Shown here in pieces: positions 22,359 through 28,221 of a DNA stretch of 64,000 bases (position 1 is its first letter; every line of letters begins with the position of its first letter). The stretch spans positions 62,001-126,000 of the forward strand of contig NVWL01000004.1 of NCBI GenBank assembly GCA_002733645.1, given 5' to 3'. The position numbers and the translations under genes were made by a program. The DNA comes from Oceanobacter sp. (GTDB lineage Bacteria; Pseudomonadota; Gammaproteobacteria; Pseudomonadales; Oceanobacteraceae). The notes under the pieces are model-generated. The model was not told the origin of the DNA and searched no databases. It saw only the letters and a program-made list of their open reading frames with translations.

Positions 22359-22706
22359 TCAAAAGTAGAATACACCGACAAGACCAACGATTAATAGTGA
22401 GTATATAGACAGGGATAATAATAACCCTACTCGCCGATCAAAAGCAGTTCCATATGGCCGAAGTGCTTTAACATCAATCAATGGATCATCTTCATGGTTA
22501 AAAATGTTACCTACAGGAAGCGATATAGCACCCGCTATCATCATAACTCTTAAGCCCACAATATCGATTGGGCATGCCCTAGCTTGACCATCATCAATCA
22601 TCTGCTTATCAATTCTAGGAATTGATATACGGCTAAATATGAACCAATTTACTCCCATAAAAATAAACAGCCCAAAAAACAAAATAGCAAATGTATATTC
22701 ACTCAT
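22359..22706 (-). CDS. Membrane immunity protein paralogue 2 (orphan module)
   Basis: 115 residues with three hydrophobic helices (about 4-26, 53-68, 92-114). It is clearly paralogous to the 121-residue protein at 23.0-23.4 kb: both carry WFIFSR(I/V)SI, then RID, RACPIDI-GLRV, ISLPVGN and a PYGT-FD-VGL stretch. It starts nine bases after the stop of a displaced toxin C-terminus, repeating the toxin-immunity order seen upstream. Small 3-4 helix proteins of this kind are typical immunity proteins for membrane-acting toxins; the role is inferred from the pairing. Confidence 0.6.
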   Translation of the reverse strand: MSEYTFAILFFGLFIFMGVNWFIFSRISIPRIDKQMIDDGQARACPIDIVGLRVMMIAGAISLPVGNIFNHEDDPLIDVKALRPYGTAFDRRVGLLLSLSIYSLLIVGLVGVFYF

Positions 22707-23002: not shown

Positions 23003-23368
23003 TTAATCGGGAAAAAATGATGCCGTCACACCTAAAATAATCATCAGGTATGCCGATAAATTAAGTATCAGTCCAACCCATTTATCAAATTTAGTACCGT
23101 AGGGACGAACTGACTTCACATCAATCATCGGATCATGTTCGTGATTTAGAAAATTTCCTACAGGGAGCGAAATCGCAGCCGCAATAATAATGACCCGCAA
23201 GCCAAAAATATCAATAGGGCAAGCTCTGGGTAAACCGTCCGCCGCCATATCGGCATCTATTCGAGTTATAGATACACGACTAAAGATGAACCAACTGATT
23301 GCCATCGCAAATAGAGAGGTAATAAACCCATAAGCAATGATACTGAATAGCACCGGATAGCTTTCCAT
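23003..23368 (-). CDS. Membrane immunity protein paralogue 1
   Basis: 121 residues, three hydrophobic helices (about 6-29, 56-74, 96-118) separated by short polar loops. Its ATG follows the toxin's TAA with no gap, so the two are translationally coupled. A paralogue follows the orphan toxin tip. Size, topology and coupling resemble immunity proteins that protect against pore-forming toxins in the inner membrane. I do not recognise a named family. Confidence 0.6.
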   Translation of the reverse strand: MESYPVLFSIIAYGFITSLFAMAISWFIFSRVSITRIDADMAADGLPRACPIDIFGLRVIIIAAAISLPVGNFLNHEHDPMIDVKSVRPYGTKFDKWVGLILNLSAYLMIILGVTASFFPD

Positions 23369-24391
23369 TTACTTCATAAGCCAGTCTGAGAATTTTTGTG
23401 AACCGTTATCTATAGATGAGCCAATCAGATATCCAGCACCAACACTAGTGATAAAAATACCACCTAAAATTAACCATCCGACAGGGCCAGCAAGCGTTAA
23501 CCCTGCCTGCACAGCCAACAGAGTGCCTCCAGCGAAAACAGCTCTACCGGCAACCATGCCTCCAGCAGCTCCAGCTCCAAACCCCGTCATTTGCTTAGCC
23601 CCCTCTCGCATCCAGTCTCCGCCTTCTGCTTCGATGTCCATCACCTTAACCACTCGCAGTCCAGCATCAACTGCAATAGCCGTATGTCCTAGACCATTAA
23701 CAAGCTTTCCCATTCGCGCTAACTTACTGGCTTGAGCTTGGCTTTCGATATTCAAACGGACATCAGCTTTCGGGGAATTAGGGTTCCGCGTTGCGAGAGT
23801 AATGCCCCGCTCGGCATTGCTAAAGGCGGTACCACGATTTTTAGCTCTTAAGGCTTCCGGAGCAAATTTCTGTAGCTCGACACCATAGCGACGACTTAGC
23901 TCGGCATAAGCCTCTCGAACGCGCACCTTAGCCTTCTGGACCGTAGCAGAGTGCCCACGCCCATGTTTACCCGAGGCAGCCAAACCACGCAAACCATTCA
24001 AGGCTTTTTGATAATTAACAACCGCTGTTTCAAAGCCATCCAAGCGAGCGACGGCTGCTGTCGCTCCAGCTCCGATCACTGAATTCATTTTTTGGATATT
24101 TTCTGGGCTAAAGTAGCGATCCAGAAATGCAGCCAGTACCAGCGTTTCATTTCCACACGTTTGAGTGATGTTGCCAATACACTGTCTTTCTGGGGCAGGA
24201 AGATAATTTAGTTGCGCGCGAATATTCGCAGCTCGCACATCGTCATCAAGAGAAAATATGCTGCCACGCTGCAAGGAAGTACCAGATGTTGAATTGTTAA
24301 CTCGGCATAGATCATCACTTGTGCGCTGATCCAAACCATTCAATAAAGCGGAGGGGGTGGTAACGTCTTGTACGAAAAGCATTTCTGGCAT
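23369..24391 (-). CDS. Putative membrane-active interbacterial toxin
   Basis: 340 residues, no signal peptide. The N-terminal ~90 residues hold four cysteines (LCRVNN, RQCIGN, QTCGNE and nearby) and the middle is helical and basic. The last ~70 residues are a glycine/alanine-rich double hydrophobic segment (GAGAAGGMVAGRAVFAGG, then GPVGWLILGGIFITSVGAGY), like glycine-zipper or colicin-type membrane-inserting tips. A membrane immunity protein is coupled to it, and a second tip-immunity pair lies downstream, the arrangement seen with polymorphic toxins. Delivery by a type VI secretion system would fit the lack of a signal peptide, but no secretion gene is in the window. The ribosome site is weak. 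I do not recognise the family. Confidence 0.5.
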   Translation of the reverse strand: MPEMLFVQDVTTPSALLNGLDQRTSDDLCRVNNSTSGTSLQRGSIFSLDDDVRAANIRAQLNYLPAPERQCIGNITQTCGNETLVLAAFLDRYFSPENIQKMNSVIGAGATAAVARLDGFETAVVNYQKALNGLRGLAASGKHGRGHSATVQKAKVRVREAYAELSRRYGVELQKFAPEALRAKNRGTAFSNAERGITLATRNPNSPKADVRLNIESQAQASKLARMGKLVNGLGHTAIAVDAGLRVVKVMDIEAEGGDWMREGAKQMTGFGAGAAGGMVAGRAVFAGGTLLAVQAGLTLAGPVGWLILGGIFITSVGAGYLIGSSIDNGSQKFSDWLMK

Positions 24392-25872: not shown

Positions 25873-26274
25873 CAGGTGGCTCTTATTTAACAGATAGCTC
25901 TGGTTTAACGGGTGGTAATTTATTACAAGAGCCACGCTTTGTTGCTGAATAACAACCTTCATATTCGGTGTTTATTGCGTACTACCCCGCACAAAATGGA
26001 CGTTATCAGCCACTTCTATTTTCTAGTCCGTTAAGATTTTCAGAACTAACAATTAACTCACAAACTTATCAATGACACCTCTATAAGCATTCCCTTTAAA
26101 TTCAATAAGTTAGATTTTGTCGCTTGATGCCAGTCAAGTTTTCATAGTTTGACTCTTCTTATCAGGGGTATAGCATCATTTTCTCTCTGATAAACAGAGA
26201 GCAAAGGAGTTGTCCGGGGAGTCTGATGCCCCGAGTCCTATGTCGAACTTTTCTAACGACAAAAGGAACTGACT
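25873..26274 (+). promoter_or_regulatory. Intergenic region and structured leader before the DUF2589 operon
   Basis: 402 bases without a gene. Close to the next start, two stems can form in an mRNA leader: CTCTCTG/CAGAGAG (26183-26201, 5-base loop) and CGGGG/CCCCG (26215-26233). An AAAGGA ribosome site then precedes the ATG at 26275. The stems sit where they could control translation, but no known riboswitch class is recognised. Confidence 0.4.
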
Positions 26275-26850
26275 ATGGCTATCGGTAAAGAACTCTCCAG
26301 TATCGATTTTCAATCAATGATTGGCGGACCGCTTGATGCGGTTGTTCGAGCACAAGCTCAATCGGCTCAAACCTCTGTCGATTTCATTAAAGCCGTTGGC
26401 TTCGATGAAGATGGCAACACCCCTACGATGGTAACGTTTAGCTACATGAAGCCGGTCGAAACGACGGATGCTCAAGGTGCGGTTACCGTTACTCCTACAA
26501 AATATGACCTCACGGTTCCTATTTTGACCATGCTCCCTATTCCATTCATTCGCGTGGAAGAGACCACCATCGACTTCAATGCGAAGATCAATTCGGTGCA
26601 GGAGTCTTCAACAACGTCTTCCCACGACCTCAATACCAAGCTTAACCTTAAGCAAGGTTGGGGCACGGGTTCGGTGAAGCTGAGCGCCAGTTACTCGTAT
26701 AAGAAATCGTCGTCTTCGTCATCGAAAATTGAGCGAACCTATAGCTTACAAATCCATGTACGTGCGGTTCAAGACGAGCTGCCAGCAGGTACTGAGAAGC
26801 TACTGGGTATTCTTGAAAATGCAATTCAAGAGACGCCTAACGCTGGGTAA
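26275..26850 (+). CDS. DUF2589-family protein
   Basis: 191 residues. The N-terminus MAIGKELSSIDFQSMIGGPL and the following LTVPILTMLPIPFIRVEETTIDFNAKI are typical of the DUF2589 family, whose function is unknown to me. The C-terminal part has a serine-rich run (YKKSSSSSSKIERTYSLQI) and a beta-rich pattern, and there is no signal peptide or membrane helix. It is the first gene of an apparent three-gene operon. A strong terminator right after it suggests that it is made in excess over the other two. Confidence 0.8.
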   Translation: MAIGKELSSIDFQSMIGGPLDAVVRAQAQSAQTSVDFIKAVGFDEDGNTPTMVTFSYMKPVETTDAQGAVTVTPTKYDLTVPILTMLPIPFIRVEETTIDFNAKINSVQESSTTSSHDLNTKLNLKQGWGTGSVKLSASYSYKKSSSSSSKIERTYSLQIHVRAVQDELPAGTEKLLGILENAIQETPNAG

Positions 26851-26856
26851 CTAAAT

Positions 26857-26886
26857 AAAAGCGACCTTAGTAGGTCGCTTTTATTT
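26857..26886 (+). terminator. Internal terminator of the DUF2589 operon
   Basis: AAAGCGACCT (26858-26867) and AGGTCGCTTT (26872-26881) form a perfect 10-bp stem with a 4-base loop, followed by TTATTTATAA. It separates the first gene from the next two. Confidence 0.85.
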
Positions 26887-26925
26887 ATAAATGACAGCAA
26901 CAATGGATTTAAGGAATTAAAACTT

Positions 26926-27627
26926 ATGGCTGAGTTAAGTGAAGTGCTTGGGGCACTGATGGTAAGTCTGGTACATGCTCGTAGAATGGCGGATGAAGAA
27001 ACCGCAGCCGTGGCGGAGTATTATAAAGACCACCCTCTGCTCGAAGGCATGAGTTTGCCCCGCGTTCGAGTACCTGAATTAACTATCTCTATGCCAGTAA
27101 CCATCGATGATCATATTGCGGCCAGCGATGCCAAAATAGACTCTACAACCAATATTTTACGAGCGGTATCGTCGCAATTATCTAGCAGTGTTAGAAACGA
27201 AAAAATTGAATCAAGAAACGTTGCAGCATTTAGAAATTCGTTTAATTCTGAAGCCAAAACCGCATTAAATAAATTAACTATTTTACAAAAAAAGAATCCG
27301 GGAAGAGTCAGTAAGGAAGCTGTCGTACGCGCAGTGGATGATGCATTACAAACCTCAATAAAAAATTCAAATTTAAGTGCCGACATATCCAACGATCAAA
27401 AAATGCAGCTGACACAAGCCATGCGCCACACCGTCAGTTCGGTGGCATTAAAAGAAAGCTCAGCCCCACTCTCACTCAAAGCTTCTGCCGTAACCAGTGC
27501 GGTTAAAGAAAAATCGACCAAAGAGTCTAGCGTTCATCTAAGCATTACGTTGCGCGAGGAAGGTTTGGAGTGGTCAACGGCACAGGGCGATAACGGGGGC
27601 ATTCAAAGCCGCCTGCAACCGGAGTAA
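26926..27627 (+). CDS. DUF2589-associated protein, helical
   Basis: 233 residues. The section PRVRVPELTISMPVTIDD (about 45-62) is beta-like and resembles sequence seen next to DUF2589 proteins; most of the rest is predicted helical and rich in serine, lysine and alanine. No membrane helix or signal peptide is visible. AAGGAAT precedes the ATG. The next gene follows seven bases after its stop, so the two are co-transcribed. Function unknown. Confidence 0.6.
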   Translation: MAELSEVLGALMVSLVHARRMADEETAAVAEYYKDHPLLEGMSLPRVRVPELTISMPVTIDDHIAASDAKIDSTTNILRAVSSQLSSSVRNEKIESRNVAAFRNSFNSEAKTALNKLTILQKKNPGRVSKEAVVRAVDDALQTSIKNSNLSADISNDQKMQLTQAMRHTVSSVALKESSAPLSLKASAVTSAVKEKSTKESSVHLSITLREEGLEWSTAQGDNGGIQSRLQPE

Positions 27628-27633
27628 TGTGTT

Positions 27634-28221
27634 ATGCAGTCGATCATCAGGGAACGAATTTTAGAGCAACTGCTTAGTATTCCGGGGCTTGTAGACCAGT
27701 ACGCTGCACAGGAAGGCAGCTTTATGCAAAATGTTGCGCACTGGTTACGAGCTACAGAGCAAGCCTTAGAACCTTTTCGCTTACCTTTGGTATCTCGTTT
27801 ATCCACCATTCGAGGCCAGCTAATTGCGGTATCGGAAGGATCAATGGATGTTGGAACCATCAAGATCACGCGCAAACAAAAACGTGGCGAAGCGATTAAA
27901 CTTTTACAGCAATCAGAAGAGGCTTTACGCGAGCATATTTCAAAAATAGATAATCAGTTCGAGGAGTTTAGAGAAAAACTATCCCAATTGCTTGCCGTTG
28001 CCTCTAGCCGTGAAGCATTGCCTGCCACTGATCACATTACCGCAGGGTATTTAGATAACGTGTGGGAGCTAGCAAAAAAAGTCCCTGAAAATAGTACGCT
28101 GGCTTTATACCTGCAAGGGAGGCTGACGGAAACCGACCGCCGTTATTTGCTCGCAGACTTAATTGAGCACTTATTAACGCGGATGGTTCCTAGCCCTGCT
28201 GCTCCAGAAATTCACGAATAA
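27634..28221 (+). CDS. Hypothetical coiled-coil protein in the DUF2589 operon
   Basis: 195 residues, mostly helical, with a likely coiled coil at about 80-120 (KLLQQSEEALREHISKID region). No family recognised. It is the third gene of the operon and its last 32 bases overlap the end of the convergent DUF4112 gene. The frame is fully open, follows its neighbour by seven bases and has ordinary codon use, which makes it a credible gene. Confidence 0.6.
   Translation: MQSIIRERILEQLLSIPGLVDQYAAQEGSFMQNVAHWLRATEQALEPFRLPLVSRLSTIRGQLIAVSEGSMDVGTIKITRKQKRGEAIKLLQQSEEALREHISKIDNQFEEFREKLSQLLAVASSREALPATDHITAGYLDNVWELAKKVPENSTLALYLQGRLTETDRRYLLADLIEHLLTRMVPSPAAPEIHE

Follow-up and report, generated by a model that had tools for sequence, protein, structure and literature searches.

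The protein family DUF2589 (PF11655) appears to have no described function. In the open-licence literature, as far as its excerpts reach, no function is given for DUF2589, and the only passing mention comes from a study in which the Archaeoglobus fulgidus genes AF0414-AF0417, labelled 'DUF2589 related', were specifically up-regulated on lactate (PMC3949148); the excerpted text covers neither a pairing of such genes nor a three-gene module. No mention of PF11655, IPR024510 or pfam11655 was found in the open-licence literature. Such a module is the subject of this work. It lies in a 64,000-nucleotide stretch of DNA from Oceanobacter sp. (contig NVWL01000004.1, positions 62,001 to 126,000 of the forward strand), referred to below as the window, and consists of the genes g1, g2 and g3, of which g1 is a full-length member of DUF2589 and g2 a divergent relative recognized by profile-profile comparison.

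Gas vesicle and encapsulin-type operons contain a strongly conserved major subunit and more divergent accessory proteins. The cassette is like them in this respect, and differs in that g1 has no sequence or fold match to any solved structure. The likeness to holin-endolysin cassettes is a constant pair of small genes, standing beside exchangeable endolysins in some lineages; the difference is that DUF2589 proteins are nearly devoid of membrane helices and that the cassette of the window has no adjoining endolysin. R-body proteins are small and are thought to assemble. Kinship with the R-body protein RebB (PF11747) was dropped because hhalign detected no sequence relation (probability 0.15%, p 0.38), and the RebB gene is unlinked to the cassette. 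It is found outside the window in the same genome (G000:C74:38324-38527), and RebB occurs in eight of the nine genomes of the genus that were searched. Trypco2 (PF19631), which is treated together with effector-associated domains in the excerpts of PMC7159879 and PMC10907252, has a similar order of helices and strands by eye. The profile-profile comparison, for which 8 Trypco2 sequences were used, gave alignments in a plausible register with p 0.02-0.09 and a probability of 2.3% or less; this is not significant, and the comparison was dropped. Trypco2 had no match in 18 genomes searched, that of the window included. No known kind of system matched the cassette, and we infer that its products assemble, in what proportions and for which role.

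The original prediction, which a model had made from the letters of the window, placed a DUF2589 protein at the head of a three-gene series. This is what was found: the listing of open reading frames (ORFs) contains three same-strand ORFs at the predicted positions, and the first matches PF11655 with 102.9 bits (cut-off 23) over positions 2-153 of the 154 in the profile. No Pfam or NCBIfam match at cut-off was obtained for g2 and g3. The elements that carry the argument are the following:

26275-26850, plus strand: g1, 191 amino acids, DUF2589 protein (PF11655, E 2.7e-29)
26852-26887, plus strand: hairpin between g1 and g2 (inverted repeat, fold against shuffles, recurrence in other modules)
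26926-27627, plus strand: g2, 233 amino acids, divergent DUF2589 paralogue (profile-profile match and structure model)
27634-28221, plus strand: g3, 195 amino acids, starting 6 nucleotides after g2

The three genes are a conserved unit, as the original prediction had proposed. Named genomes were scanned with a six-sequence DUF2589 alignment, which yielded 132 relatives, and 80 loci were kept (L030-L109). All six seed sequences had g2 beside them, so this set is biased. In four loci (L047, L053, L075 and L104) the contig ends before g2 could fit; of the remaining 76 untruncated loci in this seeded set, all 76 contain g2 and 69 contain g3. The initial rule gave 74 of 80 for g2 and 67 of 80 for g3, and two loci were added after inspection: L065, where ORFs overlap and g3 was recovered with a wider profile, and L076, where g2 lies 2.6 kb away behind an inserted gene. 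Six of the seven loci without g3 contain a second DUF2589 gene. An additional sample was found by running the Pfam profile alone on whole genomes. It comprises 15 loci, and all of them contain at least two DUF2589-type genes (15/15), g2 being counted as such since it is a divergent paralogue of the family. Seven are three-gene modules (the window, G006, G007:C12, G016, G020, G455 and G675), two have the order g1-g2-DUF2589 (G181 and G326), and six are tandem pairs (G007:C2, G022, G543, G592, G473 and G585).

Some loci hold further genes within or beside the unit. The gene between g1 and g2 of L076 (L076:7980-12493) encodes 783 amino acids and by eye a secreted repeat protein; a Por secretion tail is found on its relative in L068. 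In tandem-pair loci, a family of about 90 amino acids downstream of the DUF2589 gene is a further constant partner (L023:8618-8905, L025:10914-11186, L026:10912-11193, L029:10833-11105 and L160:7434-7709); four members cluster by blastp, that of L160 was assigned by eye, and those of L023 and L160 have no Pfam match. The tandem DUF2589 genes of L025 and L029 are on Vibrio plasmids. Genes with TcdA/TcdB-like titles occur on both stretches, and in L029 the neighbourhood includes a peptidase-domain ABC transporter, an HlyD-type adaptor and a YcaO-like gene. A type I secretion reading suggested by one Vibrio plasmid was set aside.

The second gene is a divergent DUF2589 paralogue carrying an inserted four-helix bundle. 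The hhalign comparison of g1 with g2 gave E 1.2e-4 and a probability of 55% over 41 columns around a common P-x-x-R-x-x-E segment; with a wider DUF2589 alignment the values were E 2.8e-6 and 88% over 67 columns, the N-terminal helices being paired too. The iterated DUF2589 profile also reaches two near-identical g2 proteins (E 6e-5 and 1e-4). In the same hhalign test, g3 did not fall into the DUF2589 superfamily (probability 0.09%, p 0.61). The original prediction had named g1 correctly and regarded g2 as an associated helical protein; it missed the paralogy, and likewise the lytic enzymes beside some related loci.

Structure models were made for g1 and g2 as monomers. The model of g2 is confident (predicted local distance difference test, pLDDT, 92.6; predicted template modelling score 0.71) and consists of an N-terminal helix (4-35), a strand (51-64), four helices (74-173), and short strands with a helix up to the C-terminus. 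The model of g1 has, at low confidence (pLDDT 58.5), a long N-terminal helix (12-42), four longer strands and a C-terminal helix. Neither has a structure match in the PDB at E 0.001 or better with Foldseek. The best VIA-align score of g1 is Z 3.5; the best rows of g2 (Z 8.1; a Cascade subunit and propionyl-CoA synthase) span the four-helix bundle alone, a common arrangement, and were set aside. When PDB chains were searched by sequence with an E limit of 10, there was no match for g1, the best row for g2 was a designed helical repeat (E 0.018), which was rejected, and the best E for g3, the protein that was compared by sequence only, was 0.26. In the structure check put forward with the original prediction, the models of g1 and g2 thus match no known enzyme structure, nor does g3 by its sequence. 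The third gene probably encodes a helical accessory protein. Matches in PADLOC were weak (g2 E 0.031, g3 E 0.0045) and were not taken as kinship with defence systems.

The g1 proteins of L080, L081, L084, L089, L092, L105 and L073 are 50-100 residues longer than the others. The extra length is seemingly an insertion ahead of the conserved VPxLTMLPIP segment, and it is glycine-rich in the L105 genome.

The cassette moves between phyla. Its order is kept in distantly related bacteria of many phyla and in archaea, and g1 is 68-74% identical to several proteins from other phyla. In the tree, one fork (Shimodaira-Hasegawa-like approximate likelihood ratio test, 100) unites Gammaproteobacteria, Burkholderiales, Prolixibacteraceae, a Clostridia bin, a KSB1 bin and Methanoperedens; a bin may contain stray contigs, but Limnobacter, Aquabacterium and Pontiellaceae B1224 do not carry that label. 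In pairwise comparisons of 61 complete modules, g1 has a median identity of 0.495, g2 of 0.232 and g3 of 0.197, and these identities covary among the three proteins (Spearman 0.71, 0.68 and 0.66). The family is rare in the sampled genomes (6/55, 3/369 and 7/299, the genome of the window being counted each time), and in a further set of 149 the only genome with DUF2589 was that of the window itself. The module is absent from the five close congeners G001, G002, G003, G005 and G008, in which the flanking DUF4112 gene and the gene for a 146-amino-acid protein are adjacent, 27-216 nucleotides apart. With G004 left out, the two other congeners differ: G006 has the module beside sspB and no DUF4112 gene, and the sspB region of G007 (L203) has neither. 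The latter genome carries a module of a different clade elsewhere, as well as a tandem pair. The module is also found beyond gatB in two other lineages, and in L030 it stands between gatB and sspB, so this group seems to have had the module there ancestrally and to have lost it in some members (the names gatB, sspA and sspB are our presumption throughout).

The gap of 75 nucleotides between g1 and g2 contains, just past the g1 stop, a hairpin of 16 bp with 100% complementary arms and a 4-nucleotide loop. The region folds with -28.9 kcal/mol (z -5.59; 0 of 200 shuffles as good). An A tract on the 5' side and a T tract on the 3' side both lie within the stem, and the hairpin, which is intrinsic-terminator-like, could therefore terminate transcription on both strands. 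A simple terminator scan of the window does not list it, a miss that probably reflects the position of the T tract within the stem. The single Rfam match, sub-threshold (E 0.69) and antisense on the hairpin, was discarded. The perfect hairpin between g1 and g2 thus exists as originally predicted, although its length of 10 bp was wrong. Among 59 modules with a g1-g2 gap of at least 40 nucleotides, 33 have a significant hairpin (p 0.02 or less against shuffles), compared with 1/59 of equal-length stretches inside g2 and 5/59 upstream of g1. Such stems have unrelated sequences in the window, G006 and the loci of Alteromonadaceae, Cellvibrionaceae, Prolixibacteraceae, Pontiellaceae, Methanoperedens, Flavobacterium and Lysobacteraceae. 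A T tract, defined as at least four T in the 8 nucleotides after the stem, is found in 14 of the 33 hairpins, 10 of these in Chryseobacterium; in the nearest relatives (L019, L030 and L077) none follows the stem. As fewer than half of the stems are followed by a T tract, termination is not the sole possible role. The terminator claim of the original prediction is accordingly weakened in its mechanism, while the recurrence beyond controls upholds the hairpin itself.

The claim that much more of the first product is made can be approached only indirectly, through this recurrence and through codon bias. The codon adaptation reference consisted of 23 ribosomal genes of the window's genome, 21 chosen by likeness to Escherichia coli and two being window genes which we take to be ribosomal. 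Among 50 window genes, g1 reaches 0.561 (rank 22), g2 0.493 (rank 43) and g3 0.505 (rank 41). This is consistent with a higher level of g1 than of g2 and g3, and not with very high expression of g1.

The flanks of the three-gene modules are mostly unrelated to one another. In 13 other lineages, a DUF2589 locus is near an enzyme that Pfam or PHROGs assigns as lytic and that in 11 of the 13 is on the strand of the module. The enzymes belong to many classes: GH25 in L015 and L031, N-acetylmuramidase in L026, GH24 in L028, Amidase_2 in L037, M15 with Patatin in L069 and its genus, PG_binding_1 in L073, L084, L096 and L105, Amidase_3 with a Tle1-like phospholipase in L160, GH19 in L162, and a PHROG endolysin 100 nucleotides downstream of g3 in G675 (L204). 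The assignment of L073 combines a PHROGs endolysin match (E 6e-5) with a sub-cut-off Pfam match, and that of L204 comes from PHROGs (E 1e-25) with no Pfam match. L165 and L025, lytic-looking by eye or by record title and unconfirmed, were not counted, nor was the papain-like neighbour of L053. When nine of the counted neighbours were run against PHROGs, the best match was an endolysin in eight and an amidase in L037. Four of the 15 loci of the profile sample have a lytic neighbour (G022, G473, G585 and G675).

DUF2589 genes are also found on viral contigs. L168-L171 carry a compact pair (E about 3e-29 and 2e-11), which in L168 is preceded by a DPBB lytic transglycosylase and followed by the gene of a large terminase subunit. 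Two DUF2589 genes are held by L023 and L024, and one by L022, which ends soon after it, as does L110. The latter is a viral contig with Chryseobacterium-like genes, on which a DUF2586 protein and a weak tail-terminator match are near M15, Patatin and DUF2589. In PHROGs, no family matched any DUF2589 protein tested. As judged from hydropathy only (19-residue windows of at least 1.6), a transmembrane pattern is found in 3 of 81 g1, 0 of 78 g2 and 4 of 70 g3 proteins. The occurrence of DUF2589 pairs in phages and beside interchangeable phage-type endolysins and phospholipases suggests a role in envelope lysis or antagonism in some hosts.

The reading preferred here, with a probability of about 0.43, is a horizontally mobile, self-contained cassette whose products would form a cytosolic hetero-oligomer containing more g1 than its partners and linked, in some hosts, to lysis of the envelope. 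The paralogous pair, a conserved g1 with fast-evolving partners, the scarcity of membrane helices and the hairpin fit such an assembly. In the proposed mechanism, g1 is likely the major subunit; g2, likely a minor subunit, would cap, nucleate or regulate g1, and g3 would be a helical accessory of the assembly. The hairpin after g1 may leave more g1 message than g2 and g3 message, either by termination or by protection of the g1 mRNA 3' end, and at least some hosts would use the assembly for lysis or antagonism directed at the envelope.

Several results weigh against this reading. First, the model of g1 is poor, and the ordinary codon bias of g1 is unlike that of a very abundant protein in growth. 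Second, 48 of 81 modules have no significant hairpin, and the 33 significant ones are not independent of one another, since 14 come from Chryseobacterium loci and have similar stems. In 19 of the 33, no T tract follows the stem; the window hairpin is counted among these 19 as its T tract is within the stem. Third, the lytic neighbours are unevenly spread. A lytic neighbour is near 19 of 72 three-gene modules, and 14 of the 19 are from one genus, Chryseobacterium; in the window, no endolysin is among the nearest neighbours of the cassette. The enzyme is off the module strand in L031 (GH25, divergent) and L105, and the strand bias of 11 in 13 is modest (chance about 0.011 by hand calculation). 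The lytic candidates were, moreover, initially chosen by eye among the neighbours listed. For a background, 135 near and 117 far neighbours were taken by one simple rule at 83 loci, the near set being the closest ORF from a simple ORF caller that is prone to false genes in G+C-rich DNA. Among the families listed, the 25 commonest of 155 and 164, respectively, the near set has GH25, Patatin and PG_binding_1 with 2 members each and one Peptidase_S11 (unlocated and uncounted), and the far set has eight families with 2 members, none of them lytic. As families with a single member are mostly hidden, this near/far comparison is a weak control and gives no good background rate.

The strongest alternative, which we consider rather unlikely, is a cytoplasmic stress, storage or metabolic assembly unrelated to lysis, whose endolysin neighbours would reflect prophage carriage in some lineages. 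It would account for the many three-gene modules, that of the window included, which stand among unrelated genes, and for the occurrence of the cassette in archaea, most of which have no bacterial peptidoglycan. The lactate response of the Archaeoglobus fulgidus genes, as excerpted from PMC3949148, is in keeping with it as well. It is less easily reconciled with lytic neighbours that belong to many unrelated classes and share the module's strand in most lineages.

An improbable alternative is a phage-type device for lysis or antagonism, in which the DUF2589 pair is constant, the endolysin is exchangeable, and the whole replaces holin plus endolysin. The range of neighbours, from GH24, GH25, GH19, Amidase_2, Amidase_3, M15, PG-binding and N-acetylmuramidase proteins to Patatin and Tle1-like phospholipases, favours this device, together with the PHROG endolysin assignments and the viral contig with a DUF2589 pair. 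On the other hand, the near absence of transmembrane patterns in g1, g2 and g3 argues that none of them is a holin, the tested DUF2589 proteins match no PHROGs family, and the window lacks the adjoining endolysin. A broader form, somewhat harder to credit still, would be a holin-free device shared by phages, bacteria and archaea, in which a cytosolic hetero-polymer of two paralogues, with its major subunit boosted by the hairpin, gathers exchangeable lytic enzymes or delivers them to the envelope. The proposal that DUF2589 proteins are conflict-system adaptors, distant kin of Trypco2 that join sensors to effectors by homotypic contacts, is very improbable: conflict systems do couple their parts by duplicated small domains (PMC7159879, in excerpt) and the helix-strand-strand-strand layout is alike by eye, but the alignments are weak, as given above, and the neighbours listed showed no NTPase, vWA or trypsin partner that recurs.

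The remaining features of the locus, the ribosome-binding sites having been read off the sequence, are:

25873-28189, no strand: module-holding stretch between two convergent genes (comparison with five congeners)
26176-26208, plus strand: leader inverted repeat, 14-nucleotide arms, 86% complementary (inverted-repeat search; probably without function)
26261-26268, plus strand: ribosome-binding-site-like AAAAGGAA before g1
26911-26916, plus strand: ribosome-binding-site-like AAGGAA before g2
27621-27624, plus strand: ribosome-binding-site-like GGAG before g3, overlapping the end of g2

A structured leader with two stems ahead of g1 had also been predicted and is not borne out. The leader folds no better than chance (z -1.50; 14 of 200 shuffles as good), its first stem alone has z -1.92 (7/200) and its second z +0.32 (120/200), and the stems are not common to the leaders of four relatives. 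The final 32 nucleotides of g3 overlap the convergent DUF4112 gene; the other neighbours of the cassette in the window are a MaoC-like gene, the 146-amino-acid protein, which has no Pfam match, and a gene presumably encoding SspB. Further away, the minus strand (23003-24391 and 22359-22706) encodes a 340-amino-acid protein whose C-terminal part is hydrophobic and rich in glycine and alanine and, after it, a membrane-like protein of 121 amino acids and a similar one of 115; none has a Pfam match. Repeated pieces of these genes occur in the congener G008 (L201). By eye, the group resembles a pore-forming toxin accompanied by duplicate immunity genes.

The order of the cassette is kept across archaea and many bacterial phyla, and one of its proteins is about 70% identical between phyla; the cassette must therefore have a selected function. 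The rule that DUF2589 genes occur as a hetero-pair, together with the lytic neighbours, makes an anonymous family testable: do the two proteins form an assembly, and do they work together with lytic enzymes?

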